From Pseudoleptotrichia goodfellowii (lineage in GTDB: Bacteria; Fusobacteriota; Fusobacteriia; Fusobacteriales; Leptotrichiaceae), in assembly GCF_007990505.1 (NCBI RefSeq), contig NZ_AP019822.1, positions 1,054,001-1,118,000 of the forward strand: a stretch of 64,000 nt of DNA, written 5' to 3'. A program made the translations under genes and the position numbers. Below, piece by piece: positions 7,622-24,660 of the stretch. How positions within the stretch are numbered: the stretch's first letter is position 1; each line of letters begins with the position of its first letter. The notes under the pieces were generated by a model, which did not search any database, had not been told where the DNA came from, and saw only the letters and a program-made list of their open reading frames with translations.

Positions 7622-8548
7622 TTATTTATTGTCTGAAAATATATTTTCAAAAGAATATAAGTAAAAGTTATATCTCATTTCAGAAATATTACCTTTTTCA
7701 AGATTTTCTTTTATACTGCAGCCCGGTTCGTTTATATGAAGACAATCCCTGAATTTACATTGGAGGATATATTCAGAAAACTCGGGAAATAAAAGTTCCA
7801 ACTCTTTTTTTTCTTTTAACTTGGGAAAGTCGAGAGTGGAAAATCCCGGAGTATCTATCAAATAAGTGTCTGCATCAATTTTGAAAAATCGGCTTTCAGT
7901 AGTTGTATGACGACCCCTGGAAGTTTTTTCACTGATTTCGTTTGTTTCGAGAATATTTTCTCCGATAAAAGTGTTAATTAACGAGGATTTTCCGGCACCG
8001 CTCGGTCCCGATACAGTAACGGATTTACCTTTGATATAAGATAAAAGATTGTCCAAACCGATATTTTTTTCAACAGAAACAGGAAAAACGGGAATCGTAT
8101 TCCCGAAGTTTTCCTGTATTTTATTTAAAAATATCTGCAGTTCTTCGTCTGAAATCAAGTCGATTTTTGAAAGAATCAATATTGCAGGAATATCCTGCTG
8201 TCCGGCATTTAAAAGCATCTTTTGAAAAACTGTAAAATCAAAATTCGGAGTAACAACGGAAAAAAGTATTCCGATAAAATCAATATTTGATAGTAAAGGT
8301 CTGTAAAGAAAGTTTTTTCTTTTTTCTACTTTTGTTATAACTTTTTCATCTTTGTCAAATTCTACAATATCTCCTATAATACAGTTGAGTTTATCATTTT
8401 TTACTTTCAAAGTACCTCTGAGTTTACATTCGTAAATATTTTCTTCTTTCAGGTCAGTACAATTTTCATCAAGAACATAGTAAAAACCCTTAATTTTTCT
8501 GATTATTTTTCCTTTAATAAGATTACCTCCGTTATTACTCGCCGTCAT
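7622..8548 (-). CDS. rsgA: Small ribosomal subunit biogenesis GTPase RsgA
   Basis: Late 30S maturation factor. N-terminal OB fold (GKIIRKIKGFYYVLDEN), then a circularly permuted GTPase: G4 (LSKIDLI), G5, G1 (GPSGAGKSS) and G3 (DTPGFS). It ends with a zinc-binding C-terminal domain with the Cys-x4-Cys-x-His-x5-Cys pattern. The start is ambiguous. ATG 8548 overlaps the upstream PASTA gene by 14 bases and has only a weak ribosome binding site. A perfect GGAGG (8530-8526) lies seven bases before an ATT codon (8518) that sits exactly where family members usually begin. Either start gives an intact protein. The frame also runs to 8647 without support. Confidence 0.9.
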   Translation of the reverse strand: MTASNNGGNLIKGKIIRKIKGFYYVLDENCTDLKEENIYECKLRGTLKVKNDKLNCIIGDIVEFDKDEKVITKVEKRKNFLYRPLLSNIDFIGILFSVVTPNFDFTVFQKMLLNAGQQDIPAILILSKIDLISDEELQIFLNKIQENFGNTIPVFPVSVEKNIGLDNLLSYIKGKSVTVSGPSGAGKSSLINTFIGENILETNEISEKTSRGRHTTTESRFFKIDADTYLIDTPGFSTLDFPKLKEKKELELLFPEFSEYILQCKFRDCLHINEPGCSIKENLEKGNISEMRYNFYLYSFENIFSDNK

Positions 8549-9482
8549 TGTGAGTTCTTTCAGTTTCCGAACCGATATTGTTAGGTTTTTGCTGATTATT
8601 ATTTTGTTGCTGTCCGCTATTATTCTGATTGTTTCCTGAATTATCACGTTTATCTATTTTATTCAGAGTATCGTTTATAATATTTTCAATTTCCTGATTT
8701 TGTAAATCCTGGTTAGTCTGATTTATAATCTCTTCAACTGACGGTCCTGTAGGCTGAACTTTCACACCTGCATTGATTACAAGGGATATTTTCTGTCCTT
8801 TGGAAATTTTAGCTCCCGGAGCAGGGGAAGTAGATATAATAGTATTTACAGGCAGTGTAGAATCTTCTCCTTTGGAAGTTTCTCCTACCGAAAGTCCTAT
8901 CTGTTCAAGCAATACTTTGGCATCATTTATATCAAGTCCGATTAAGTTAGGCATAACCGAAGCATCGAGTATTTTTTGGGAAGACACGAGTATAGAAATT
9001 TTCTGATTTATTTCCAGTTTTGTTCCCGGTTTAGGATATACACCGATTATAGTATTATACTTCTGGTTGGAAGGCTGATAGTCGATTTTTTCAATCTGAA
9101 TATTCTGTTCCTGTAATTTGGAACGTGCTTCAAGCAACTCAAGCCCCACTAAGTTAGGTACTTCCTGACCTTCACCGTTGTTTACCCATATTTGTATTGT
9201 TCTATGCACTTTTACTTCTTTTCCTGCGAGAGGAAACTGTATAAATACAGTATCGAGAGGAACTTTTTCAGTTTTTGAATTTATAATTTTAACATTAAGT
9301 CCCGCATCCTTTAAATATTTTACCGCATCTTTTTCATGAAGATTTACAACATTGGGTATTATTGTATGTCTTTCGTTAAAAAAGTGTCTGAAAAAAACTT
9401 CTTTTCCGATAGTTCCCAAAATAATCAGACACACTATGGTAATTACCGTTTTTATTATATTAAACTTAAATTTCTTTGCCAT
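8535..9482 (-). CDS. Membrane-anchored PASTA-domain protein lacking a kinase domain
   Basis: 315 residues: a short basic N terminus, one membrane helix (about residues 9-28), then three extracytoplasmic PASTA repeats beginning near IIPNVVNLHEKDA, VPNLVGLELLEA and MPNLIGLDINDA. The tail is Asn/Gln-rich low complexity. PASTA domains bind peptidoglycan fragments or lipid II-type ligands. In Firmicutes the gene at this place before rsgA and rpe encodes a PASTA Ser/Thr kinase (PrkC/Stk); here only the membrane and sensor part exists. I chose ATG 9482, seven bases after AGAGGT; the open frame upstream to 9647 overlaps the divergent MerR promoter and is not credible. Confidence 0.82.
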   Translation of the reverse strand: MAKKFKFNIIKTVITIVCLIILGTIGKEVFFRHFFNERHTIIPNVVNLHEKDAVKYLKDAGLNVKIINSKTEKVPLDTVFIQFPLAGKEVKVHRTIQIWVNNGEGQEVPNLVGLELLEARSKLQEQNIQIEKIDYQPSNQKYNTIIGVYPKPGTKLEINQKISILVSSQKILDASVMPNLIGLDINDAKVLLEQIGLSVGETSKGEDSTLPVNTIISTSPAPGAKISKGQKISLVINAGVKVQPTGPSVEEIINQTNQDLQNQEIENIINDTLNKIDKRDNSGNNQNNSGQQQNNNQQKPNNIGSETERTHNDGE

Positions 9483-9640: not shown

Positions 9641-9988
9641 ATGACAATCAAAGAAGTAAGCGAAAAATTTGATATTTCTCAAGATACTTTACGATATTAT
9701 GAGCGTGTGGGAATGATACCGCCTGTAAACCGTACTGCCGGCGGAATAAGAGATTATAACGAAAATGATCTGAATTGGGTAAAATTCGCAAAATGTATGA
9801 GAAGTGCAGGACTTCAGGTGGAAGCTATTGTGGAATATCTGAAATTATATCGTGAAGGAGATACAACGGTACAGGCACGTATAGAGTTGCTCAAAGAACA
9901 GAGAGAGCGTCTGATGGAGCAGAAAAATGAAATTGACACAGCTCTGGAAAAAATAAATAACAAAATTTCTTTGTATGAAAAAATATAA
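9641..9988 (+). CDS. MerR family transcriptional regulator
   Basis: 115 residues with an N-terminal MerR winged helix (KEVSEKFDISQDTLRYYERVGMIPP) and a C-terminal coiled-coil dimerisation helix. The only cysteine (KCMRSAG) lies in the DNA-binding half and there is no metal-binding tail, so it groups with the aldehyde/stress-type MerR proteins rather than heavy-metal sensors. Ribosome binding site AGAAAGGAG precedes ATG. It is the first gene of a two-gene unit with the DXS-like enzyme 16 bases downstream. It very likely autoregulates through the 19-bp-spacer promoter. Confidence 0.85.
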   Translation: MTIKEVSEKFDISQDTLRYYERVGMIPPVNRTAGGIRDYNENDLNWVKFAKCMRSAGLQVEAIVEYLKLYREGDTTVQARIELLKEQRERLMEQKNEIDTALEKINNKISLYEKI

Positions 9989-12248: not shown

Positions 12249-12341
12249 CTAAATAGATGATATTACAATAAGAATATGTACAAATAAAATAAGTAGAAGT
12301 AATATCAGAGCTATAAGTTTTTTTATAAGAAGGCTATACAT
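12249..12341 (-). CDS. Candidate type I toxin: 30-residue hydrophobic peptide
   Basis: ATG 12341 to TAG 12249 encodes 30 residues: MYSLLIKK followed by one almost uninterrupted hydrophobic helix rich in Leu and Ile, ending ISSI. A perfect ribosome binding site (AGGAGGG) lies seven bases upstream, but it is folded into a 5-bp hairpin, CTCCT-GAA-AGGAG (12363-12351). A second 5' hairpin (ACAAAC/GTTTGT) lies further upstream. TATAAT (12407-12402) and a 22-bp terminator bound a transcript of roughly 185 bases. Small size, membrane helix, hidden ribosome binding site and a strong terminator are the marks of type I toxins. No antisense antitoxin is evident. Not assigned to a named family. Confidence 0.55.
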   Translation of the reverse strand: MYSLLIKKLIALILLLLILFVHILIVISSI

Positions 12342-12440: not shown

Positions 12441-12496
12441 CGAAAAATAAAGTGGCGATGAAATCGCCACTAACCATGTATAACCTTCTAAATTAC
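12441..12496 (-). ncRNA. Candidate small RNA of about 56 bases
   Basis: A strong promoter (12531-12503) lies just upstream of a perfect 8-bp hairpin, GTGGCGAT (12452-12459) and ATCGCCAC (12463-12470), followed on the minus strand by TTTATTTTTC. The expected RNA is about 56 bases. It also contains a 13-codon reading frame (ATG at 12476, preceded by AGAAGG) whose middle is the hairpin itself, so it could encode a very short peptide. It lies in tandem upstream of the candidate toxin gene and outside the left inverted repeat. Confidence 0.5.
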
Positions 12497-12554: not shown

Positions 12555-12583
12555 TTGTCGTTTAGTTTTTAACTAAATACCTT
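12555..12583. repeat. Left 29-bp inverted repeat of invertible segment
   Basis: Perfect inverted copy of 14012-14040. It contains an internal dyad, TTTAGTT (12561-12567), TTT, AACTAAA (12571-12577), so each end is itself a two-armed site of the kind tyrosine recombinases bind. Outside the repeats the flanks diverge at once. Confidence 0.85.
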
Positions 12584-12650
12584 TTCTAAACTTAAAATTC
12601 TAAAATAATATAAAATACGAAATATATATTATTTAAGGATGTGATAGAAA

Positions 12651-13619
12651 ATGGAAAAAACCAAAATTGAAGATATGAAATACGAAAAATTAGCAGATTT
12701 ATGGTTAGAAAGAGAAAAAAATTTTTTAAAAATTTCGACTTACAGCACATATAAAAATCTACACGAAACTCACATTAAACCTGTATTTGGAAACGAATTT
12801 ATAGGCAACATATCGAACGAATCACTACAACAATTTATATTTGATAAATTGAAAAATGGAAGATTGGACGGAAACGGAGGGTTGTCAAGAAAAACGGTAA
12901 AAGATATTATGACGATAATTAAAATTAGTATTAACTACGCTGTAAGAGAAAATATTATAAAAGAAAAAAGTTTAAAATATAAGATACCAAAAACTGATAA
13001 AATCAGGGAAATTAGCATATTCACTCAAAAAGAACAATCATTACTTTTCAAATATATTGCTTCAAATCCGACTTCAAAATCTGTCGGAATCTTATTAGCA
13101 ATGAGTGTAGGCTTAAGAATAGGAGAATTATGCGGTCTAAAATGGAAAGATATAGATTTGAAAAATGAAATTTTAATTATAAATAAAACTATTCAAAGAA
13201 TATATATTAAAGGAAAAAAAGAAGGAAAATCAGAAATTATAATATCTACACCTAAAAGTAAAAGTTCATACAGAATAATTCCCTTGAGCAGGGACTTGAT
13301 AAATTTATTAAAATTTTTTCAAATCAATGATAAAAACAACTATTTTCTTTCAAATAATGAAAAATATATAGAGCCGAAAACATATAGAAGATACTATTAT
13401 AAGATTCTTGAAAAATTAAAAATCAGGAAATTAAAATTTCATTCTCTCAGACATACTTTTGCAACGACAGCTATTGAATCAGGCATAGATTATAAAACTG
13501 TTTCGGAAATATTAGGGCATGCTTCAGTAAATACTACTCTCGAACTGTATACTCATCCTAAAATTGAGCATAAGAAAAAGTGTATTGAATTGATTTTTCA
13601 GAATTTTGAAAAAAGATAA
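12651..13619 (+). CDS. Tyrosine recombinase / integrase
   Basis: 322 residues. The N-terminal SAM-like core-binding domain (about 10-105) begins LADLWLEREKNFLKISTYSTYK. The catalytic domain keeps every family residue: Arg156 (GLRIGELCGL), a Lys in the beta-hairpin KSKSSYRIIPL, His264 and Arg267 (HSLRHTFATT), His290 (LGHASVNTT) and the nucleophile Tyr300 (LELYTH). It resembles integrases of conjugative elements and phages but stands alone, without excisionase or mobility genes. Ribosome binding is by AAGGATGTGAT, a weaker match. Its position between inverted repeats suggests it acts as the invertase for the downstream operon promoter. Confidence 0.92.
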   Translation: MEKTKIEDMKYEKLADLWLEREKNFLKISTYSTYKNLHETHIKPVFGNEFIGNISNESLQQFIFDKLKNGRLDGNGGLSRKTVKDIMTIIKISINYAVRENIIKEKSLKYKIPKTDKIREISIFTQKEQSLLFKYIASNPTSKSVGILLAMSVGLRIGELCGLKWKDIDLKNEILIINKTIQRIYIKGKKEGKSEIIISTPKSKSSYRIIPLSRDLINLLKFFQINDKNNYFLSNNEKYIEPKTYRRYYYKILEKLKIRKLKFHSLRHTFATTAIESGIDYKTVSEILGHASVNTTLELYTHPKIEHKKKCIELIFQNFEKR

Positions 13620-13791
13620 TGAGAAAAATGTAGTAAAATATTTGGTAAGTACCCCTAAGAGTTAAGAATCCTAATCAGTATAAAGTTCTTTATATTAATA
13701 AAAGTAATACTAATACAAAAATCAGAGTACGCATATAGCATACCTTCTTATTTAAAATTAGTGAGTTAGCTAAACTCATGAAATTATTATA

Positions 13792-13819
13792 ACAAAAAAG
13801 ACTGGAAAAATCCAATCTT
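13792..13819 (-). terminator. Minus-strand terminator inside the invertible segment
   Basis: On the minus strand AAGATTGG pairs with CCAGTCTT (U-G allowed) and a six-T run follows. No gene on that strand was found in the ~170 bases upstream. It would stop transcripts entering from the right. After inversion it would stand between the left flank and the recombinase. Besides this hairpin and the promoter, the 13620-14124 gap holds nothing else I can name. Confidence 0.55.
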
Positions 13820-13966
13820 GATTGTCGCTATTTTATCTAATCTTAAATAAGTCACTTTAAGAGTTTACAAAAGAATGATAACACTTATTTATAAAAAAAT
13901 CAAGTACGATTATCTGTTTTACTATATACTTTGAAGATTATTTTTTATTACGTCAATGAACATATA

Positions 13967-13994
13967 TTGACATTTTTATATTATAGTGTATAAT
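13967..13994 (+). promoter_or_regulatory. Outward promoter of the defence operon
   Basis: Perfect TTGACA (13967-13972), a 16-base spacer and perfect TATAAT (13989-13994). Transcription would begin near 14001, inside the invertible segment, cross the right inverted repeat and enter hsdR at 14125. Confidence 0.78.
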
Positions 13995-14011
13995 AAAATA
14001 AAGATTATTCT

Positions 14012-14040
14012 AAGGTATTTAGTTAAAAACTAAACGACAA
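14012..14040. repeat. Right 29-bp inverted repeat of invertible segment
   Basis: Exact reverse complement of 12555-12583, with the same internal 7-3-7 dyad. It would lie in the 5' untranslated leader of the hsdR operon mRNA, where the dyad can also form an RNA hairpin. Confidence 0.85.
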
Positions 14041-14124
14041 AATAAAAGCAGAAAACATTATATTGAAAAAGGAATAAAAAGGGCTTGGGGTTTATTTTTA
14101 AAATAAATAAAGGAGTTTTATTCT

Positions 14125-17100
14125 ATGGGAAATAAAATTTACAATGAAAACAGCAGAGTAAAAATACCTGCATTAGTCCATTTTGCAAGATTAGGTTATA
14201 CTTATCAGTCAATTAAACAATACAAATTGGCTGAAAATGAAATAGATGCAGATACAAATATTTTTGTACTTTTTTTTCATAAAGCACTCAATAAATTGAA
14301 TAATAGAGAAGTTACATTGGAAGAAACAAGAAAGATAATAGAAGATTTTAAATTGAAGTTATCAGGAGATGATTTAGGAGAAAAATTTTATAATTTTCTG
14401 ATAAACGGATATGAAGATTTAAAATTAATAGATTTTTCTGAAGAAGATAAAAATGACTACAGAGTAGTCACAGAATTGATTTACAAAAACGAAGATGAAG
14501 AATTTAGACCCGATATTACAGTTTTGATAAATGGACTGCCACTTTCATTTATGGAAGTGAAAAAACCTAATAACAAAGAAGGTATACAAGCAGAATACGA
14601 AAGAATGAATATGAGATTTTCCAAAAAGCAATACAGAAGATTCACTAATATAACGCAGTTTACTGTTTTTTCAAATAATGTTGAATATGATGATACAGAA
14701 GTAGTTCCTCTTAGTGGTTCTTTTTATGCTTCAAGCAGTTATGAAAAATTATTTTTCAATTATTTCAGAGAAGAAGATAAAAATATATTTTATAATTTAA
14801 CAGAAGTGGATGAGCAACTTATCGGGATGATTTTAAATGATAATAACTTAATTAGTATAAAATCGAATCCTGAATTTAGGACAAATTTGGAAAAAGATAC
14901 CCCTGCTAATAAAATAATAACTTCACTTTATTCAAAAAATAGAATAAAAGAATTTTTAAAATATGGAATTGTCTATGTCAAAAAAATTAATAATATGGGA
15001 ATTACTGAAATACAAAAACACGTAATGAGATATCCTCAATATTTTGCTACTAAAGCGATTAAGAATACTCTCGAAAAAGGAATAAAGAAAGGGATCATAT
15101 GGCATACACAGGGAAGTGGAAAAACTGCTCTTTCATACTTTAATGTAAAATATTTGGAAGATTATTTCTTTAAAAAAGGTAAGGCAGCTAAATTCTTCTT
15201 TGTTGTAGATAGACTTGAATTATTGGAACAGGCATCGTCAGAATTTATTTCAAGAGGTTTATCTATCGAAAAAGTAAATTCAAGAGAAGAGTTTATAAAA
15301 GCAATGCAAAGTCCTAAAGTAAGAGATAGTCAGGGAAAATCTGTAATAACAGTTGTAAATATTCAAAAATTTTCTGAAGATTCTACAGTTATTAAATTTA
15401 GCTATGACTTGGGTATTCAGAGAATATTTTTTCTTGATGAAGCACACAGATCATATAAACCTACAGGCTCTTTTCTATCAAATTTGATAAATTCAGATAA
15501 GGACGGAGTATTCATAGGACTTACAGGAACACCATTAATAAATAATCCTGATTATAAATCTACAGACGTATTTGGGGATTACATACATCGTTATTATTAC
15601 AATAGTTCTATTCAGGACAGATATACATTAAAACTTATAAGAGAAGGTATTCAAACTGAATATAAAGAAAAATTGGAAGAACATATAAAAAATCTTGAAA
15701 TTCTTGAAGGAAGTATAAATAAAAATGAAATATATTCACATCCCAAATATGTAAATGCTTTAGTTGAATATATTACAAAAGATCTTGAAGAAAGTAAAAT
15801 TTCTTTTGGAGATAATACGATAGGAGCAATGATTGTCTGTGATTCTTCAAATCAGGCAAAAGAGATATTTAATAATCTTATGGAAAAAGGCTATATAAAT
15901 GCAAATATTGCAATAGAAAAAAATGAGGACTTTATTAATTCAAATGGAGAAAAAGCAAAAAAAGCAGCTTTAATATTACATGATGTCGATACTAAAGAAA
16001 TAAGAAAAACAGAACAACAAAATTTTAAGGCGGGAAATATAGATATATTAGTTGTTTTCAATATGCTACTAACAGGATTTGATGCACCGAGATTAAAGAA
16101 AATATATTTAGGAAGAGTAATAAAAGCTCATAATTTGTTACAAGCATTAACTAGGGTAAATAGACCATATAAAAAATTCAGATATGGATATGTAGTGGAT
16201 TTTGCAGATATTAGTAAAGAATTTGATAAAACAAATAAAAGATATTTTGAAGAATTGCAAAAAGAATTAGGGAATGAATTTGATAAATACAGTAATATAT
16301 TTAAAACAGAAGAAGAAATAGAGAAAGATATACAAAATATAAAAGAAAAATTATTTCAATATGACACTGAAAATATTGAGATATTTAGAAAACAAATGGG
16401 CGAGATAAAAGATAAAAATATTTTAAATGAAATAAAAAAAGTATTGGAAGACTATAAAGATTTAAGAAATATAATAAAATTACACGGATATTCAAATCTT
16501 TTTGAAAAATTGGATATTGAATATGCTAACAAAATGTTAAATGAGATCACTAATAGAATTTCCATTATTAATTTGAATCAAAGTTTAAGTGAAGAAGGAA
16601 ATAATGAAGCAATAATAAATACAGCTTTAGATAAAATAAATTTCAATTTTAAAAAAATCAAAGAGGAAGAAATGATTATTGCAGATGCTTTTCAAAACGA
16701 ACTTGAAAAAACAAGAGCTGAATTTGAAAGAAGCAGAGATCCCAAATCAAAAGAATATATAACTCTAATGGAAGAATTGAAAAGATTATTTAAAAAGAAA
16801 AATTTAGAAGAATTTACTACTGATGAAATGAAAGATGTTATGAAAAATCTTACAAATATAAAAATGAGAATAAAAGAATTAAACAGAAATGATTATAATT
16901 TAGCTATTAAATATGATGGAGATAACAAATTTATGCGTATACATAAAAGAATAAAAGAAAATCAAAAAATTCACGATATGTCTGATATCAAATTAAATTC
17001 AATATTGAAAAATACGAAATGTCAAATAGATAAAATAATAGAAAACAATATAGAAATAATGGAAAAGTCTGCCTATTTTGAACGAACTATAATGCCTGTA

Positions 17101-17208
17101 ATTATAGATTCTTCAGAAGAAAATGAGACAAAAAATTCATTAGAAGAGCTAAAAATAATAAGAAAATATATATTTGAAGAATACACTAGCGAAGGGAGAA
17201 AGAATTAA
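14125..17208 (+). CDS. hsdR: Type I restriction enzyme R subunit
   Basis: 1,027 residues. The N-terminal PD-(D/E)xK nuclease has Asp130 in RPDITVLING and Glu144-x-Lys146 in FMEVKK. The SF2 translocase follows: Walker A GSGKT at 330-334, DEAH at 438-441, GLTGTPL, and motif VI in LLQALTRVNRPYKK. The helical C terminus would contact HsdM. With HsdM and HsdS it translocates and cuts unmodified DNA, typically phage DNA. AAAGGAG precedes ATG. Its stop codon directly abuts the hsdM start, so it is the first gene of a compact operon whose only strong upstream promoter lies in the invertible segment. Confidence 0.95.
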   Translation: MGNKIYNENSRVKIPALVHFARLGYTYQSIKQYKLAENEIDADTNIFVLFFHKALNKLNNREVTLEETRKIIEDFKLKLSGDDLGEKFYNFLINGYEDLKLIDFSEEDKNDYRVVTELIYKNEDEEFRPDITVLINGLPLSFMEVKKPNNKEGIQAEYERMNMRFSKKQYRRFTNITQFTVFSNNVEYDDTEVVPLSGSFYASSSYEKLFFNYFREEDKNIFYNLTEVDEQLIGMILNDNNLISIKSNPEFRTNLEKDTPANKIITSLYSKNRIKEFLKYGIVYVKKINNMGITEIQKHVMRYPQYFATKAIKNTLEKGIKKGIIWHTQGSGKTALSYFNVKYLEDYFFKKGKAAKFFFVVDRLELLEQASSEFISRGLSIEKVNSREEFIKAMQSPKVRDSQGKSVITVVNIQKFSEDSTVIKFSYDLGIQRIFFLDEAHRSYKPTGSFLSNLINSDKDGVFIGLTGTPLINNPDYKSTDVFGDYIHRYYYNSSIQDRYTLKLIREGIQTEYKEKLEEHIKNLEILEGSINKNEIYSHPKYVNALVEYITKDLEESKISFGDNTIGAMIVCDSSNQAKEIFNNLMEKGYINANIAIEKNEDFINSNGEKAKKAALILHDVDTKEIRKTEQQNFKAGNIDILVVFNMLLTGFDAPRLKKIYLGRVIKAHNLLQALTRVNRPYKKFRYGYVVDFADISKEFDKTNKRYFEELQKELGNEFDKYSNIFKTEEEIEKDIQNIKEKLFQYDTENIEIFRKQMGEIKDKNILNEIKKVLEDYKDLRNIIKLHGYSNLFEKLDIEYANKMLNEITNRISIINLNQSLSEEGNNEAIINTALDKINFNFKKIKEEEMIIADAFQNELEKTRAEFERSRDPKSKEYITLMEELKRLFKKKNLEEFTTDEMKDVMKNLTNIKMRIKELNRNDYNLAIKYDGDNKFMRIHKRIKENQKIHDMSDIKLNSILKNTKCQIDKIIENNIEIMEKSAYFERTIMPVIIDSSEENETKNSLEELKIIRKYIFEEYTSEGRKN

Positions 17209-18846
17209 ATGAACGAAGCAGTAAAACAAAAGACAAAAAAATTAATAGATGATTTAAAAAGTATATCGAATTTATTCGGATTGGGAGGAACTCCAGGAGA
17301 ATATAGAATAATAACGGAAACATTTTTATACAAGTACTTAAATGATAAATTTTTATATGAAATGAAAAAGATATTACCTAAATTGAATGACGAAAATTTT
17401 GAGAAAAATTTAAAAGAATTAAATAAAGAGGAATATAAAATGGCTGAGTATAAATTATCGCCTGAAACAGCTAAATTTAAACCTGAATATTTAATTTCCG
17501 AATTATACAATAAACAAAACAGTAACAATAAAAAATTTAATGAAATATTGGATGATACACTTATAAATATTGCAAATGATAATATTGACATTTTTTCTGT
17601 AAAAACAAGTGGAGAAGAAAAAATCAGATTGTTTGAGTCAATTTGTAATTATGTGATTGACCCGATGGAAAGAGAAAGATTTGCGAAAGCTATTATAAAT
17701 AAATTGGTGGAAGTGAATTTTGAAGAACTGTTTTCGGAAAAATATGACTTTTTTTCACAAATATTTGAATATTTGATAAAAGATTACAACAAAGATTTTG
17801 GGCAATATGCCGAATATTATACCCCGCACGTGATTGCTTCGATTATTTCCAAAATAATGATAGAAGACGGCGTAAAAAATGTAACGGTATACGACCCAAG
17901 TGCAGGAACAGGAACATTAGTTTTGGCACTGGCTCACGAAATCGGAGAAAATAAATGTTCGGTTTATACACAGGATATTTCGACAAAATCGAATGAATTT
18001 TTGAGATTAAACTTAATTTTGAACAATTTGACACATTCATTGAACAACGCAATAATGGGAGATACTTTATTAAATCCGAAACATACGACGGATAATGGAA
18101 AAAAACTGCGAACTTTTGATTATGTAATATCAAATCCGCCTTTTAAAATGGATTTTTCCACAACAAGAGAACAACTTGCAAGCGACAGTTACGCTCAAAG
18201 ATTTTTTGCAGGAGTACCAACCGTTCCGAAAAAGAAAAAAGACAGCATGGAAATCTATCTATTATTTATCCAACACGTAATAAATTCACTAAACGAAAAA
18301 GGAAAAGGTGCAATAATAGTGCCAACAGGTTTTATTACTGCTCAGTCGGGAATTGCCTCAAAAGTAAGAAAATACATGGTAGAAAACAAAATAATAAAAG
18401 GCGTAATCTCAATGCCATCAAACATTTTCGCCACAACAGGAACAAACGTAAGCATACTATTTTTAGACAAAACCAAAGAAACCCAAAATGAAAAAGTAAT
18501 CTTAATAGACGCCTCAAACTTGGGAAGCAAAGTAAAAGAGGACGGAAAAAACCAAAAAACCGTACTTTCCGAAGAAGAAAAAGAAAAAATAATAAACACT
18601 TTCCGAAATAAAGAAGAAATAGAAGATTTTTCAAAAGCAGTAAGCTATGAAGAAATAAAAGAAAAAAACAATTCATTATCAGTAGGGCAATATTTTGATA
18701 TAAAAATAGAGTATGTAGATATAACGAAAGAGGAATTTGATGAGAAAATGAAAAATTACAAAGAAAGTTTAAAAGAAATGTTTGAAGAGAGTGCAAAACT
18801 TGAGAGGGAAATTTTAGAGAGTTTGGAGGGGTTGAGAATTGAGTAA
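17209..18846 (+). CDS. hsdM: Type I DNA adenine methyltransferase M subunit
   Basis: 545 residues. An N-terminal helical domain is followed by an N6-adenine methylase with the SAM-binding motif DPSAGTGTLVLALA (from about 229) and catalytic NPPF (309-312). QYAEYYTPHVIASII is the family's target-base region. It modifies host sites specified by HsdS and forms the M2S core of the restriction complex. The start abuts the hsdR stop with AGGGAGA upstream. Codons in roughly 18240-18600 are visibly richer in C than in neighbouring hsdR and hsdS, hinting at mosaic history. Confidence 0.95.
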   Translation: MNEAVKQKTKKLIDDLKSISNLFGLGGTPGEYRIITETFLYKYLNDKFLYEMKKILPKLNDENFEKNLKELNKEEYKMAEYKLSPETAKFKPEYLISELYNKQNSNNKKFNEILDDTLINIANDNIDIFSVKTSGEEKIRLFESICNYVIDPMERERFAKAIINKLVEVNFEELFSEKYDFFSQIFEYLIKDYNKDFGQYAEYYTPHVIASIISKIMIEDGVKNVTVYDPSAGTGTLVLALAHEIGENKCSVYTQDISTKSNEFLRLNLILNNLTHSLNNAIMGDTLLNPKHTTDNGKKLRTFDYVISNPPFKMDFSTTREQLASDSYAQRFFAGVPTVPKKKKDSMEIYLLFIQHVINSLNEKGKGAIIVPTGFITAQSGIASKVRKYMVENKIIKGVISMPSNIFATTGTNVSILFLDKTKETQNEKVILIDASNLGSKVKEDGKNQKTVLSEEEKEKIINTFRNKEEIEDFSKAVSYEEIKEKNNSLSVGQYFDIKIEYVDITKEEFDEKMKNYKESLKEMFEESAKLEREILESLEGLRIE

Positions 18847-20071
18847 AATAAATATAGGAAAAGATTTATATTTAAAGGGAAGAATAGGATGGAAAGGTTT
18901 AAAAAAAGACGAATATTTAAAAAAAAGTGAATATAGAATTATAAATGCAACAGCTCTTGAAGATAGAATAATTGATTGGAGAAAAAGTGGATATATTTCA
19001 AAAGAACGTTATGAAGAATCACCAGAAATAATGTTGAAAGAAAAGGATATATTAATATCAAAAGATGGCACTTTGGGTAAAATAGGATTTGTAAATAACT
19101 TGGAAGAAAAGACAACAGTTGCTTCAGGTATATTTGTATTAAGAAATACAAAGAATGAAATACTAGATACAGAATACATGTATCACTATTTAAAAAGTAA
19201 TATTTTTAAAAGATTTATTAATAAAAATAAGGCTTTAGGTAGTACTATTTTACACTTATATCAAAAAGACTTAGAAAAACTGGAGATTGAACTTCCAGCT
19301 ATAGAAAGACAAAGAAAAATATCTCGAATTCTTTCAAATTTAGATAATAAAATAGAATTAAATAACAAATTAAATCAGAAATTAGAAGAAATGGCAAAAA
19401 CTCTTTATGATTATTGGTTTGTGCAGTTTGATTTTCCGAATGAGAATGGAGAGCCTTATAAAAGTTCCGGAGGGAGAATGGTGTTTGATGAAAGAATTGG
19501 GAGAGAAGTGCCAGTGGGATGGGAGGTTAGGAAAATAGAAGACTATTGTAATATTTTTACAGGAAAGAAAAATGTTACGGAATCTTTAGAATGTGGAAAA
19601 TATAAATTTTTTTCATGTGCACCCGAATATCGTTATTCAAATGAAAAATTATATAGTGGAAAAGCGATTTTGATTTCAGGCAATGGCTCGTATACAGGAA
19701 GAACCATTTTTATAGAAGATAAGTTTGACCTTTATCAAAGGACTTATGCTTGTGTAAATAAAGATGAAAAGGATGATATTCTTTATTATATATTTTTTTC
19801 AATGTTAAAATATTTTGTTCCTAAAGTATCTGGGGGAACTCATGGCTCAGCTATTCCATATATTGTATATAATGATATAGCAAAAGAAAAAATTTTAATA
19901 AAAAATAATATTATAAATAAATTCTTAAGTATAGTAGTTCCGTATCAAAAAAAAATAAGAAAAATAAAAGAAGAAAATGAAAAATTAATTGGATTAAGAG
20001 ATTGGCTATTGCCGATGTTGATGAATGGGCAGATAAAAATTGAAGACAAAGGAAAGAAAGAAAGTGAATAA
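18839..20071 (+). CDS. hsdS: Type I restriction specificity subunit S
   Basis: 410 residues, starting at TTG 18839 inside the end of hsdM, with GGAGGGG upstream. Two variable target-recognition domains are separated by conserved helical regions. The first conserved region, around PAIERQRKISRILSNLDNKIELNN, includes EEMAKTLYDYWFVQFDFP; the second ends LIGLRDWLLPMLMNGQIKI. The domains set the two halves of the recognition site. There is a single complete hsdS and no silent cassette nearby, so target shuffling is not supported. Confidence 0.94.
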   Translation: MSKINIGKDLYLKGRIGWKGLKKDEYLKKSEYRIINATALEDRIIDWRKSGYISKERYEESPEIMLKEKDILISKDGTLGKIGFVNNLEEKTTVASGIFVLRNTKNEILDTEYMYHYLKSNIFKRFINKNKALGSTILHLYQKDLEKLEIELPAIERQRKISRILSNLDNKIELNNKLNQKLEEMAKTLYDYWFVQFDFPNENGEPYKSSGGRMVFDERIGREVPVGWEVRKIEDYCNIFTGKKNVTESLECGKYKFFSCAPEYRYSNEKLYSGKAILISGNGSYTGRTIFIEDKFDLYQRTYACVNKDEKDDILYYIFFSMLKYFVPKVSGGTHGSAIPYIVYNDIAKEKILIKNNIINKFLSIVVPYQKKIRKIKEENEKLIGLRDWLLPMLMNGQIKIEDKGKKESE

Positions 20072-20786
20072 AAATAAAGAAATACTGGATTCTTTTTTAA
20101 AATATGCAAGCGATATACTAGCAGATACTGAAAGTAAGCTTACTGGGGAAAAAATAAAGAAAAAAATGACTGAATATTCTGGAGAATTTGATGTAGAAAT
20201 ATCAATAGATGATAAATTCCCTAATAAAAGAAGTTTATTATTTGATAACTTAAAAAAGTTTTCAGCAGAACAACAATTTTATATTTTAACTGAGTTATGT
20301 GAAGCTCCTGAGATTAAAGAAAAAACAGAAATTTTAGAATTAAAGAAAAAAATTTACAATAGATATGGCGAATTATCTATCAATAAAGCAAGTAGTGAAT
20401 TATTAATTATTGAAACAGAAGAAAAATTGAGAAAATATGAAGAATCTCATAAAAAATATAAATTAGGTATTGAATATTTTGAGAAAAATGAAGATAAAAG
20501 GCATATTTTAGATGATATGAGATTATCTTTAGAATTGCTATTAAAAGAAATTTTAGGGAATGAAAAATCACTTGAAAACCAAAAAAGTGAATTAGGAAAA
20601 AGATTAAAGGAAAAAGGAATTTCACCTGAAATTATGAATATGTTTGAAAAAGTTTTGAATTATTATTTTGATTATCAAAATAATAATGTAAAACATAATG
20701 ATAAAATAAATGATTTAGAAGTAAAGTATATTATGGAACAAACAAGTATTATGATTAAATTTATTATACAAACTTTAGGAGAATAA
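20064..20786 (+). CDS. HEPN/AbiJ-like putative defence protein
   Basis: 240 residues from GTG 20064; TTG 20040 is an alternative start eight codons earlier. The C-terminal ~100 residues (DDMRLSLELLLKEILGNEKSLENQ ... YYFDYQNNNVKHNDKI) resemble the C-terminal HEPN-like module of AbiJ-type abortive-infection proteins as I remember them. The Asn-x3-Lys-His stretch stands where the HEPN Arg-x4-6-His site would be, so RNase activity is unproven. The N-terminal half is helical and unrecognised. It overlaps hsdS by 8 bases and precedes the kwaA-like gene by 2, so it belongs to the same operon. Confidence 0.5.
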   Translation: MNKNKEILDSFLKYASDILADTESKLTGEKIKKKMTEYSGEFDVEISIDDKFPNKRSLLFDNLKKFSAEQQFYILTELCEAPEIKEKTEILELKKKIYNRYGELSINKASSELLIIETEEKLRKYEESHKKYKLGIEYFEKNEDKRHILDDMRLSLELLLKEILGNEKSLENQKSELGKRLKEKGISPEIMNMFEKVLNYYFDYQNNNVKHNDKINDLEVKYIMEQTSIMIKFIIQTLGE

Positions 20787-20788
20787 AT

Positions 20789-21352
20789 ATGAGCACACTA
20801 TTTAAGTGGAATATGTTTATAACTTCATTTTTTCCATTATGGATTTCAATAATAATAATAGAAATTTGGAGCATATATGAAAAAGAAGAAAAATTTGAAA
20901 AATATAATATTGAAATAATATTACTAATTATTTTATCATTATTAGTTTTTAGTAGTTTTATCTATATGTTTCTATTATTAAGAAATATAAGAAGAGGTAA
21001 AAAAGGTAAAGAGGAAGGAAAAATTATAGAAGCAAAAAATTCAAATAAATTAACATCAGAGTTTCTATTAGCATATATATTGCCAATGATTTCTTTTGAT
21101 TTTACTGAGTTGAAAGGGATAGTAATTTTCTTAATATATTTTATAACATTGAGTTTTTTATGCATAAAAAATAAAAATTTTTATACAAATATAATTTTAG
21201 AAATAATTGGATATAGTATATATGAATGTAAAATAGAAAAAGATGAGAAAAATAAAGAAGTATTAGTTTTGAGTAGAAATAATTTGACTCAATCGTTACC
21301 AAAATTAATTGATTATTTTGATTTTGAAAATACAGTATTAATAGAAATTTAG
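20789..21352 (+). CDS. kwaA: KwaA-like membrane protein (Kiwa defence)
   Basis: 187 residues with about four membrane helices (roughly 6-28, 41-65, 88-102 and 108-126) and a C-terminal cytoplasmic tail. The arrangement of ITSFFPLWISII, TSEFLLAYILPMISFDFT and KNKNFYTNIILEIIGY matches what I recall of KwaA, the membrane half of the two-gene Kiwa anti-phage system. The adjacent gene looks like KwaB and both lengths fit (about 190 and 310). AGGAGA lies in the end of the previous gene. The gene symbol rests on this pairing; a profile search would settle it. Confidence 0.6.
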   Translation: MSTLFKWNMFITSFFPLWISIIIIEIWSIYEKEEKFEKYNIEIILLIILSLLVFSSFIYMFLLLRNIRRGKKGKEEGKIIEAKNSNKLTSEFLLAYILPMISFDFTELKGIVIFLIYFITLSFLCIKNKNFYTNIILEIIGYSIYECKIEKDEKNKEVLVLSRNNLTQSLPKLIDYFDFENTVLIEI

Positions 21353-21364
21353 GAGGCTATATAA

Positions 21365-22300
21365 ATGAGTAAAGAAATTTTAGAAAAAAGTCTAGAATAT
21401 CAAGGAAAATTAATTAAATATGATTGGAACTTATATTTTGTCAATATAAGAAAAGTAAGATCGGATGAGGAAAATTTATATACAGTACACAAACATTCAT
21501 TTAAAGAAATTAAAGAATTAAATGAGTATATAAAATCTTTAACAGAATGCGTAAAAAAATATCAAGTTAAAAAATTAGAAACTGTTATGGAGTATAATGG
21601 AAATAATCCTAAAACTTCGTGTGATAAAATTTTACTTAATAATGAATTGATTAAATTGAAATGGAGATATCTATTAGATTCGATAAATAATTCCGTTAGG
21701 ACAATGGATACTAAATTAGAGTATCAAGGCTATATAATAAGAGGTGAGCATCGGGGAAATGTCATATTTTTTGGGAAATCTGCAAATCCTATTTATAATT
21801 TTAAAAATGGTAAAAATTTATTTAAAACGGATTATGATGAATTAGAAGAAATTACAGATAAATTGTGTAGACTTTATTTTAAAACTGATTTTATAGTATT
21901 AAATGACATATTGTATGTTTTTAATAATAATTTTGAGAAATTTTTTAAATTAGAAAAAGCAATAAATAAAATCAAAGAAGAAAAGATAAGTCAAATTTTA
22001 GAGCTAGAAATATTTAGCGATAAAGAAAAAGTAGAAAGATTAATGAAAAGTAATCAATCCAGAAATATGTTTTTAACATTTAGTAATGAAAGAAATGAAG
22101 AATTAAGAAATAGTTTAAAAAGAATAGAAATAGCTGAATTATTAAAATTGAAATTAGATGAAAATAATAATTTTATAATTGAAAACAGAGAAGCAGCTAC
22201 TACCTTAGCAAAATACTTATGTTATAAAATAGTGCAAGAAAAAAGGACTGATAATATCTTAGAAGTTAGCTCAGCAATTAAAATAGGAGATAAAAAATAG
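21365..22300 (+). CDS. kwaB: KwaB-like protein (DUF4868-type, Kiwa defence)
   Basis: 311 residues, soluble. The central and C-terminal pattern (RGNVIFFGKSANPIYNFKNG; FKTDFIVLNDILYVFNNNFEKFF; LLKLKLDENNNFIIENREAATTLAKYL) follows the DUF4868 layout of KwaB: a readout strand region, an 'I see dI lyI.n...FE' segment and a final small domain. In Kiwa, KwaB is the DNA-associated effector working with membrane-bound KwaA. AGGAGG precedes ATG, 12 bases after kwaA. Very AT-rich like its neighbours. It is the last gene of the defence operon. Confidence 0.6.
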   Translation: MSKEILEKSLEYQGKLIKYDWNLYFVNIRKVRSDEENLYTVHKHSFKEIKELNEYIKSLTECVKKYQVKKLETVMEYNGNNPKTSCDKILLNNELIKLKWRYLLDSINNSVRTMDTKLEYQGYIIRGEHRGNVIFFGKSANPIYNFKNGKNLFKTDYDELEEITDKLCRLYFKTDFIVLNDILYVFNNNFEKFFKLEKAINKIKEEKISQILELEIFSDKEKVERLMKSNQSRNMFLTFSNERNEELRNSLKRIEIAELLKLKLDENNNFIIENREAATTLAKYLCYKIVQEKRTDNILEVSSAIKIGDKK

Positions 22301-22456: not shown

Positions 22457-23365
22457 ATGAAAATAATCGATATATTAAAAGAAATTATTAATAACAAAGT
22501 TAAAAGAAGATATATTTTATTATTTTTATTGTTATTACTGTTATTTTTAACAGGAATCGTTACAACTTTTGTAGTGATATACAAAAACAGAGATGTTGAA
22601 TTTCAGAAAAAATATAAAGAGATTTGTGAAAAAACGGGATGTGATTTCTCCGATAAAAATTTTTATGAAGAGGGATTGGAACGTTCTCTTTATGAGTGTG
22701 AAAAAAAAGAGAAAACATTATTATATAATGATTACACATATATTGCTAAAAATGTGATTATAACATCTTCTAAAAAATGGAATAAAAAAATGTATAATGA
22801 TAAAACTTATTTTGTATTATCAGGAAATGTAAAAATTATGGAAAAAAACGGATATAGATATTCGGCTTCGGAAGTGCTTATTGAAACGTTTCTTGGGGGG
22901 GAGGGAGATAATATTATAATTCCCGGTGAAGTTCAGATTTTTGATAATGGACAAATTAAAAAATTGAGAGGTGTGGAGTTATCTGATTTCTTCTATATTC
23001 ATAGAAAGAATAAAAAATTTAATAACTTTCAAATACTGAGTAATGATATATTAGATTTTTATAAAAGAGCACTTGTTTTTGATTGTAAAGCTGTAAGTCA
23101 GGAAGAGTTAAATAAAAAAGACAGTTCATCTAAAAATGAAAATACAGGAAATAGAAGAAGTTATAACAGTTATGGAGGAGGGTATGACAGCAAAAAGTAC
23201 GATAAGGAAATAAAAAAAACTCAAAAAGAATTTGAAGATGCAGGGTTCAGTTCTGATTATGACCCCCAATATTCTGATGATCCCGAATATGAAAAAGAAA
23301 TATTGGAAGATTATGACAGTATAGACAGTGGAGAAACTCCGTATGACGGAGATGACGGTTATTAG
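22457..23365 (+). CDS. Membrane-anchored LptC/OstA-like protein
   Basis: 302 residues: one N-terminal membrane helix (about 17-41), then an extracytoplasmic domain. Its alternating pattern (YTYIAKNVIITSSKKW ... YFVLSGNVKIMEKNGYRYSASEVLIET ... IIIPGEVQIFDNGQ) resembles the LptA/LptC beta-jellyroll, where 'sGnVki' repeats occur. The last ~80 residues are acidic, Ser/Tyr/Asp-rich low complexity. Start ATG follows AGGTGATG. No other lipopolysaccharide transport gene is adjacent, so a role in outer-membrane assembly is only suggested. The same frame continues 26 codons past the TAG stop. Confidence 0.45.
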   Translation: MKIIDILKEIINNKVKRRYILLFLLLLLLFLTGIVTTFVVIYKNRDVEFQKKYKEICEKTGCDFSDKNFYEEGLERSLYECEKKEKTLLYNDYTYIAKNVIITSSKKWNKKMYNDKTYFVLSGNVKIMEKNGYRYSASEVLIETFLGGEGDNIIIPGEVQIFDNGQIKKLRGVELSDFFYIHRKNKKFNNFQILSNDILDFYKRALVFDCKAVSQEELNKKDSSSKNENTGNRRSYNSYGGGYDSKKYDKEIKKTQKEFEDAGFSSDYDPQYSDDPEYEKEILEDYDSIDSGETPYDGDDGY

Positions 23366-23670
23366 TTTTATGATATTTTCAACATACCTGACATTAAAAA
23401 ATATTTAGTAGATAGAAATAAATATGGAAATACAGAAAGAAGATGAAGTAAGAAAAAGAGTAATTTTCTAACAAAGTAAAACCCAAAAGCAAAAATTCTG
23501 TGTATATTATAAATAAAAAGTTTTTTGCTCTTTTTTCATGCTTTTCACTACGAAACTCGAAAAACTCAGAAATTTTTTATCGCTCATTTATCGCTACTTT
23601 TATCGCTTAAAAAACGAGCGATAAATTTATTTTTATGGTATAATAAAATAAAAAATTAAAGGAGATATAG
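23366..23670 (+). other. Gap between LptC-like and Fic genes
   Basis: The first 81 bases stay open in the frame of the preceding gene: 26 codons follow its TAG, ending at TGA 23444-23446, and the translation looks protein-like (IPDIKKYLVDRNKYG). This may be a lost C terminus or chance. From 23577 the Fic operator repeats and promoter begin. Nothing is seen in between except a T-rich stretch. Confidence 0.4.
23577..23644 (+). promoter_or_regulatory. Iteron-like operator and promoter of fic
   Basis: TTATCGCT occurs three times in direct orientation (23577-23584, 23588-23595, 23600-23607), spaced 11-12 bp so that all face one side of the helix, and once inverted as AGCGATAA (23617-23624). An extended -10, TGGTATAAT (TATAAT 23639-23644), follows. 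This looks like a multi-site operator overlapping the -35 area. Confidence 0.6.
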
Positions 23671-24660
23671 ATGAAACCGCCCTTTACAGTTACAAACTCA
23701 ATGCTGAATAAAGTAGTGGAAATTTCTAAAACTATAGGTAACTTAGAGTTTCAAATTGAAAAAGATTTGAAATTAAGAAAAGAAAATCGAATAAAATCTA
23801 TTCATTCTTCATTAGCTATTGAGCAAAATTCTCTAACCATTGAACAGATAACAGCTATTATTGATGGGAAAAGAGTGTTAGGAAATCCAAAAGAAATTAG
23901 GGAAGTTAAAAATGCTTATGACGTCTATGGAAAAATTTTAACATTAAATCCATATAATGAATTGGATTTTTTGAAAGCACATAGTCTATTGACAGCAGAT
24001 ATTGTTAATGAAAGTGGAAAATATAGAAGCAAAGATGTAGGTATATGTGATGAAAAAGGTAATGTTGTACACATCGGAGCCAGACCACAGTTTATTGCCG
24101 GATTGATGAATGATTTATTTCATTGGGGACAAATAGATGATACGCCGGAAATTATCAAAAGCTGTGTGTTTCATTATGAAATTGAAATGATTCATCCTTT
24201 TGAAGATGGAAACGGACGAATGGGAAGATTGTGGCAAACAGTTATTTTAGCTAACTGGAATCCTATTTTTACTTGGCTACCTATTGAAACAATAATTTAC
24301 GAACATCAACAAACATATTATGATGTATTAGGTCAAGCAGATAAAGAAAACAGTTCAAATTTATTTATTGAATTTATGTTGGATATCATACTTGAAACAT
24401 TTATCGCTTATAAAACGGGCGATATTTATAGTGATAAAGTAATGAATTTGCCTGAAGGACTAACCTCAACCGAGAGTAAAGTTTATCTTTTAGTTAAAAA
24501 GTATTTAAACACTCATGTGAGCGTTACAGCAAATGTTGTGAGTAAGTTAATCAGTAAGTCATCCCCTACGGCTAGAAAATATTTGTCATTATTTGTATCT
24601 TTAGGATTAATGGAAGCACATGGCAGTAATAAAAACAGAACTTACACTTTAATAGAATAG
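23671..24660 (+). CDS. Fic family protein with C-terminal winged helix
   Basis: 329 residues. Fic proteins transfer AMP from ATP to target proteins. The catalytic loop HPFEDGNGRMGRLWQ carries the His, acidic residue and Arg of the family. The N-terminal inhibitory-helix region reads SSLAIEQNSLT, where most relatives have Gly in place of the Gln after the inhibitory Glu. The C-terminal ~70 residues form a helix-turn-helix (SVTANVVSKLISKSSPTARKYLSLFVSLGLMEA), suggesting self-regulation through the upstream repeats. AAAGGAG precedes ATG. No antitoxin-type partner gene is next to it. Confidence 0.88.
   Translation: MKPPFTVTNSMLNKVVEISKTIGNLEFQIEKDLKLRKENRIKSIHSSLAIEQNSLTIEQITAIIDGKRVLGNPKEIREVKNAYDVYGKILTLNPYNELDFLKAHSLLTADIVNESGKYRSKDVGICDEKGNVVHIGARPQFIAGLMNDLFHWGQIDDTPEIIKSCVFHYEIEMIHPFEDGNGRMGRLWQTVILANWNPIFTWLPIETIIYEHQQTYYDVLGQADKENSSNLFIEFMLDIILETFIAYKTGDIYSDKVMNLPEGLTSTESKVYLLVKKYLNTHVSVTANVVSKLISKSSPTARKYLSLFVSLGLMEAHGSNKNRTYTLIE

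Follow-up and report, generated by a model that had tools for sequence, protein, structure and literature searches.

A likely self-encoded invertible promoter switch in front of a type I restriction-modification and Kiwa-like operon of Pseudoleptotrichia goodfellowii

Why a tyrosine recombinase is encoded immediately upstream of a defence operon in P. goodfellowii is the question raised by this locus. Recombinases are frequent neighbors of defence genes; their role in phage defence is unknown, and they are often dismissed as prophage markers (PMC12529663). Here, we analyzed a 64-kb stretch of the genome, called the window, and conclude that positions 12555 to 14040 are likely an ON/OFF promoter switch that works or did so until very recently. 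The anatomy of the segment is shown; flipping at this locus, its effect on transcription and any protection from phage are inferred. A real switch is favored because the repeats are unique and perfect, the recombinase is intact, the consensus promoter is single and homologous segments are found inverted.

What the segment is made of can be read directly (Table 1). The first-pass annotation had claimed perfect 29-bp inverted repeats, a complete tyrosine recombinase between them and a TTGACA-16-TATAAT promoter inside the right repeat that faces hsdR, and all three claims held. The two arms are complementary at 29 of 29 bp and can be extended to 34 bp at 94%. The repeat motif was observed twice in the window when none was expected, and its 18-bp core is found in the 2.29-Mb genome at these two places only, in opposite orientations. 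By comparison, exact inverted repeats in shuffled DNA from this region reached at most 18 bp. Both the recombinase gene and the outward promoter are enclosed by the repeats, and the locus thus meets the inverton criterion that repeats bound a promoter-bearing segment. The catalytic residues R156, K202, H264, R267, H290 and Y300 of the recombinase are all kept and are invariant across a 13-sequence alignment. The R-K-H-R-H-Y set together with the Phage_integrase domain satisfies the criterion for the tyrosine recombinase family, and the criterion for serine recombinases of the Hin family is not met.

Table 1. Features of the putative switch and of the operon that it faces (positions in the window).
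Feature	Position	Strand	Details
Terminator-like hairpin left of left repeat	12451..12471	-	Sequence prediction; inferred role, halting the flipped promoter
Left inverted repeat (putative recombination site)	12555..12583	+	29-bp perfect match with right repeat; core TTTAGT-TTTTA-ACTAAA
Tyrosine recombinase, inside segment	12651..13619	+	322 aa, without stops; Phage_integrase (PF00589), E 9e-29; Phage_int_SAM_3 (PF14659), E 9e-9
Terminator-like hairpin in segment	13798..13819	-	Sequence prediction; forward-reading once flipped; role inferred
Outward promoter TTGACA-N16-TATAAT	13967..13994	+	TTGACA at 13967-13972, 16-nt spacer, TATAAT ending at 13994; no other exact match in the 64 kb; similarly placed in L076 and L077
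Right inverted repeat (putative recombination site)	14012..14040	-	29-bp perfect partner of left repeat
hsdR, operon gene 1	14125..17208	+	PF04313 HSDR_N, E 2.8e-21; PF18766; PF22679; PADLOC REase_I
hsdM	17209..18846	+	PF02384 N6_Mtase, E 5e-66; PADLOC MTase_I, E 7e-234
hsdS	18839..20071	+	PF01420; PADLOC Specificity_I, E 1.3e-100; sole specificity gene in operon
PDC-S32 homologue (candidate defence gene)	20040..20786	+	PADLOC, E 6.5e-62
kwaA-like (Kiwa)	20789..21352	+	PADLOC KwaA, E 8.6e-22; NCBIfam KwaA, 84.1 bits (cut-off 100)
kwaB-like (Kiwa)	21365..22300	+	Pfam KwaB, 30.9 bits (cut-off 26.3); NCBIfam, 34.3 (cut-off 200)

The promoter is set 17 bp inward from the right repeat and points at the ATG of hsdR. 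It is the only exact match to TTGACA-N15-19-TATAAT on either strand of the window and also the best sigma-70 match there, and the chance of finding such a promoter on the plus strand of the 505 bp that separate the recombinase gene from hsdR is approximately 0.0004. No forward promoter-like site (at least 9 of 12 positions) was found from the right repeat to the start of hsdR, and no forward terminator was found between the recombinase gene and hsdR. Left of the segment, a further minus-strand terminator-like hairpin was found at 12242-12221, beyond the one next to the left repeat. Promoter and terminators alike are predictions from sequence.

The genes downstream form a tightly packed operon, abutting or overlapping, in the order hsdR-hsdM-hsdS-PDC-S32-kwaA-kwaB, and the first forward terminator-like site past the operon start is at 23599-23625. 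The criterion for a type I restriction-modification (R-M) system is met, as hsdR, hsdM and hsdS each carry their family domains. The adjacent kwaA-like and kwaB-like genes were matched by PADLOC and Pfam, respectively, and both fell under the NCBIfam equivalog cut-offs. No long inverted repeat was found within hsdS, and the criterion for hsdS shuffling (two or more hsdS genes with internal repeats) is not met. Thus, with a single hsdS that has no long repeat inside, the locus is not a specificity shufflon. No relatives of hsdR at E 1e-60 were found within the family among the related species examined, and therefore this exact operon is not common to those species. We note that kwaB is followed by a 302-aa protein of unknown family (22457-23365) and then by a Fic-domain protein (23671-24660).

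How the switch would work follows a simple scheme. The recombinase encoded in the segment would recombine the two 29-bp sites and flip 1.49 kb of DNA. In the assembled orientation, the promoter would fire across the right site into all six genes of the operon, the ON state. In the inverted state, it would fire leftward and be halted by the minus-strand terminator approximately 85 bp beyond the left site, and the operon would be promoterless, the OFF state. Switching would be reversible, because the recombinase gene keeps the same upstream DNA whichever way the segment lies. The benefit may be bet-hedging, in which protection from phage is weighed against the cost of the system or the risk of self-restriction.

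Whether related recombinases also sit beside defence operons was addressed by comparison. The closest recombinases are approximately 50 to 55% identical and come from related species, which we infer from base composition and gene content to belong to the Leptotrichiaceae (Fusobacteriota). In a tree, the window recombinase clusters with four defence-linked recombinases (L031, L033, L035 and L037; support 92/89), and a clade of capsule-linked recombinases is separate (support 100/99). Each of the four lies beside a short inverted-repeat segment with a defence operon beginning past it: hsdM-hsdS-hsdR (L033/L126), brxA-brxB-brxC-pglX of BREX (L035/L124) and C3a139 helicase-DUF4391-Mod (L037/L125). 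L031 has the same C3a139 helicase-DUF4391-Mod genes as L037, but its segment is different and shorter. Unlike in the window, the recombinase is outside the segment in all four. The promoter of each has an extended -10 element, TATGGTATAAT, and points toward the recombinase and away from the defence operon. With this orientation in 4 of 4 relatives that have an intact recombinase, none of the relatives combines a working enzyme with both states.

The sites of these relatives differ from one another. The dyad is TTAAGC-TGGAT-GCTTAA in L031, AAGT-TTGTT-ACTT in L033 and L035, and AAGT-TTATT-ACTT in L037. The core spacer varies among loci, yet it matches in both arms of each locus, and spacer identity between arms is a requirement of site-specific recombination. 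The arms of L033 and L037 are imperfect, with a longest exact match of 14 bp, which is not above chance alone. We accept these repeats on account of homology to L035 and of the pairs of loci found inverted (below), not on the basis of arm length. The leader DNA between repeat and operon is common to L033 (approximately 8430-8500), L037 (approximately 9806-9860) and L031 (approximately 8505-8545). That a leader is shared despite different operons (hsdM versus C3a139) suggests that operons have been swapped behind a fixed switch. Separately, the center of the L035 segment (approximately 9085-9268) is a dispersed repeat of about 180 bp that occurs dozens of times per genome throughout one genus, and this part was rejected as a marker on account of its copy number.

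Evidence that such segments invert in nature came from two pairs of loci. L120 and L035 carry the same BREX operon and align colinearly over 1.5 kb of operon and leader at 93% identity. The adjoining 412-bp segment matches at 88% identity in the opposite direction, and beyond it colinearity resumes in the far flank (30/30). Because both flanks are colinear around the reversed segment, the breakpoints lie within the repeats. In L120 the promoter points toward brxA, all that survives of the recombinase is a C-terminal piece (KEHKKKCLDLLY, read by eye), and the repeat arms have diverged in the absence of a working enzyme. Likewise, L121 and L037 share the C3a139/DUF4391/Mod operon; the operon-side flank is 93.5% identical and colinear, and the segment is reversed, such that its promoter end adjoins the operon in L121, where 35 aa of the recombinase remain. 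Thus, homologous segments are shown to have inverted between related species. Both copies that lost the recombinase hold the promoter toward the operon, and we infer from sequence alone, without transcripts, that they are locked ON. Four intact and two lost recombinases are too few for statistics. The dxs neighborhood was uninformative on synteny, as its flanks differ between the two genomes compared (G009 and G018).

At the window locus itself, only one orientation of the cassette is known, and no same-species or near-identical copy of the locus was found among the genome and viral contigs searched. The first-pass annotation had held that the recombinase controls the operon by flipping the promoter and that the present orientation is ON. 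The former is supported by the comparison, and flipping here remains an inference; the latter is likewise still inferred, in the absence of transcript data. It had also named observations that would refute the idea, two of which could be sought in part. One was the same orientation in all relatives, and homologous segments were instead found in both orientations, the flanks being colinear and the breakpoints falling within the inverted repeats. The other was a start for hsdR transcription outside the segment, and the stretch from the right repeat to hsdR holds no candidate promoter, although no transcripts were available. The switch idea survived both.

Whether a recombinase inside its own repeats is peculiar to the window could also be answered. 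In another genus of the same order, three recombinases (L076, L077 and L079) are enclosed by perfect repeats of 29, 32 and 22 bp, respectively. L076 and L077 have a TTGACA-N17 promoter between the 3' end of the recombinase gene and the repeat, pointing outward as in the window, and their arm spacers are paired within each locus (TATATAT in L076 and TATAGAT in L077). More distant homologues, approximately 33 to 38% identical, are enclosed by perfect 20- to 36-bp repeats in Ruminococcus albus (L128), Vescimonas (L130) and two gut contigs (L131 and L132). No long inverted repeat was found around the recombinase of a relative from Bacilli (L046). We conclude that the self-enclosed recombinase is a widespread kind of cassette across other genera and phyla; what stands out in the window cassette is the defence operon as target. 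We note that L076 and L077 are two self-enclosed cassettes in one genome, with a site family and a neighboring 97-aa open reading frame (ORF) in common. In L076, a Chlam_PMP-repeat surface protein comes after that ORF, and the cassette promoter points away from it.

How the proposed switch compares with known systems depends on which part is considered. The flagellar phase switch of Salmonella, Hin/fljBA, has recombinase and promoter inside a segment between inverted sites. Its history is told elsewhere (PMC11868660). The window meets the same layout criterion, a recombinase and an outward promoter in one invertible segment that turns a neighboring operon on or off, but Hin is a serine recombinase that works with an enhancer and Fis, whereas the window has a tyrosine recombinase and a defence operon as target. 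In the fimB/fimE and Bacteroides-type invertons, a promoter flanked by inverted repeats is flipped by a tyrosine recombinase (PMC4948785, PMC11868660); there, however, the invertible segment does not contain the recombinase gene, and most targets are surface structures. The fim recombinase genes, for example, lie outside their invertible segment. In Mycoplasma pulmonis, inversions by the tyrosine recombinase HvsR at hsd can abolish or restore type I R-M activity (PMC4948785; PMC11892184, citing Dybvig and Yu 1994), but they run through the hsdS genes and also change specificity, whereas the window has a single hsdS, and the flip would be confined to a promoter segment. Shufflons of hsdS, such as those of Streptococcus pneumoniae (PsrA) and Bacteroides R-M systems, share recombinase-driven inversion at type I R-M loci (PMC4948785, PMC5903667, PMC5729914) but alter HsdS specificity without a promoter switch of the whole operon. 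Finally, promoter inversion that silences methyltransferases was raised as a suggestion in the discussion of work on the Bacteroides fragilis group (PMC10333322), without a recombinase cassette common to type I, BREX and helicase/Mod systems.

Published work describes invertible promoters that control surface structures, shufflons of hsdS and inversions in M. pulmonis able to abolish R-M activity (PMC11868660, PMC4948785, PMC5903667, PMC11892184, PMC5729914). None of the titles and abstracts in the literature searched reported that a type I, BREX or similar operon is switched as a whole by promoter inversion, and none reported such a switch in Leptotrichia; coverage was partial, and this is not proof of novelty. 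The proposal that the layout is new held only in part, as the self-enclosed layout is the Hin arrangement and is common in distant homologues, and it is the target, whole defence operons, that appears new. Invertible promoters being already known, what appears to be new is a recombinase lineage that serves whole, interchangeable defence operons.

Other explanations of the locus are possible. The switch might be a fossil, a cassette that formerly inverted and is now fixed ON with hsdR constitutive. The recombinase-loss derivatives L120 and L121, with the promoter toward the operon, indicate that locking occurs, and a single orientation is known at the window locus. L120, however, has a remnant and diverged arms, whereas the window has an intact catalytic set and arms that match at every position, and we consider locking here unlikely. 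Alternatively, inversion may be real and have another main effect, either reorientation of the recombinase gene, with read-through into hsdR, or a flipped promoter that drives an ORF at 12249-12341. The absence of a forward terminator before hsdR and the presence of that small minus-strand ORF left of the segment are consistent with such effects, but the best sigma-70 match sits at the exit of the segment and a terminator separates the left repeat from the ORF; this reading too seems unlikely. Least likely, and rejected because the site pair is unique in the genome and inverted, is that the recombinase is the integrase of a prophage, integrative conjugative element or defence island with repeats unrelated to promoter switching: its domain family is typical of integrases, its nearest solved structures are the Int proteins 6emy and 6emz and its phage and plasmid homologues are numerous, at lower identity, but inverted rather than direct sites give inversion and not excision, homologous segments are found inverted and the DNA from the recombinase to the defence operon carries no phage or conjugation genes.

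The promoter switch remains the preferred reading, and a bolder form of it can be proposed. The evidence tips, by a modest margin, toward a single tyrosine recombinase lineage that has become specialized in turning whole immune operons on and off as a modular switch. Within one family it would be coupled to type I R-M (hsdMSR, and hsdRMS with Kiwa), BREX and C3a139/DUF4391/Mod systems by way of similar switch and leader DNA, promoter inversion would make immunity phase variable, and the operon would repeatedly be locked ON where the recombinase is lost. Sequence and comparison give defence-adjacent recombinases a concrete job, the on/off switching of whole operons. If true, populations would mix protected and unprotected cells, also differing in whether they admit foreign DNA, and active immunity would be overstated by surveys that score a defence operon as present.

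Not all members of the recombinase family are obvious inverters. In seven relatives (L032, L034, L036 and L038 to L041), a sister clade of recombinases is encoded upstream of, and co-oriented with, a capsule or polysaccharide operon (7 of 7 species); a capsule-type sugar transferase (PF02397) was identified in the one such operon tested. Most lack clear inverted repeats, and only L036 has a clear repeat, of 18 bp. For that reason, the capsule-linked relatives are not relied on as additional switches, and their mode of action is open.

Two small reading frames were also noted. The minus-strand ORF outside the left repeat encodes a 30-aa hydrophobic peptide, MYSLLIKKLIALILLLLILFVHILIVISSI, with a GGAGG ribosome site and the hairpin at 12242-12221 as terminator. 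No match to Rfam families was found, including for this ORF; judged from sequence alone, it is possible that it resembles a type I toxin-like small peptide. Within the segment, a short hydrophobic reading frame on the minus strand (13690-13815) ends in MRTLIFVLVLLLLI, near the hairpin at 13819-13798.
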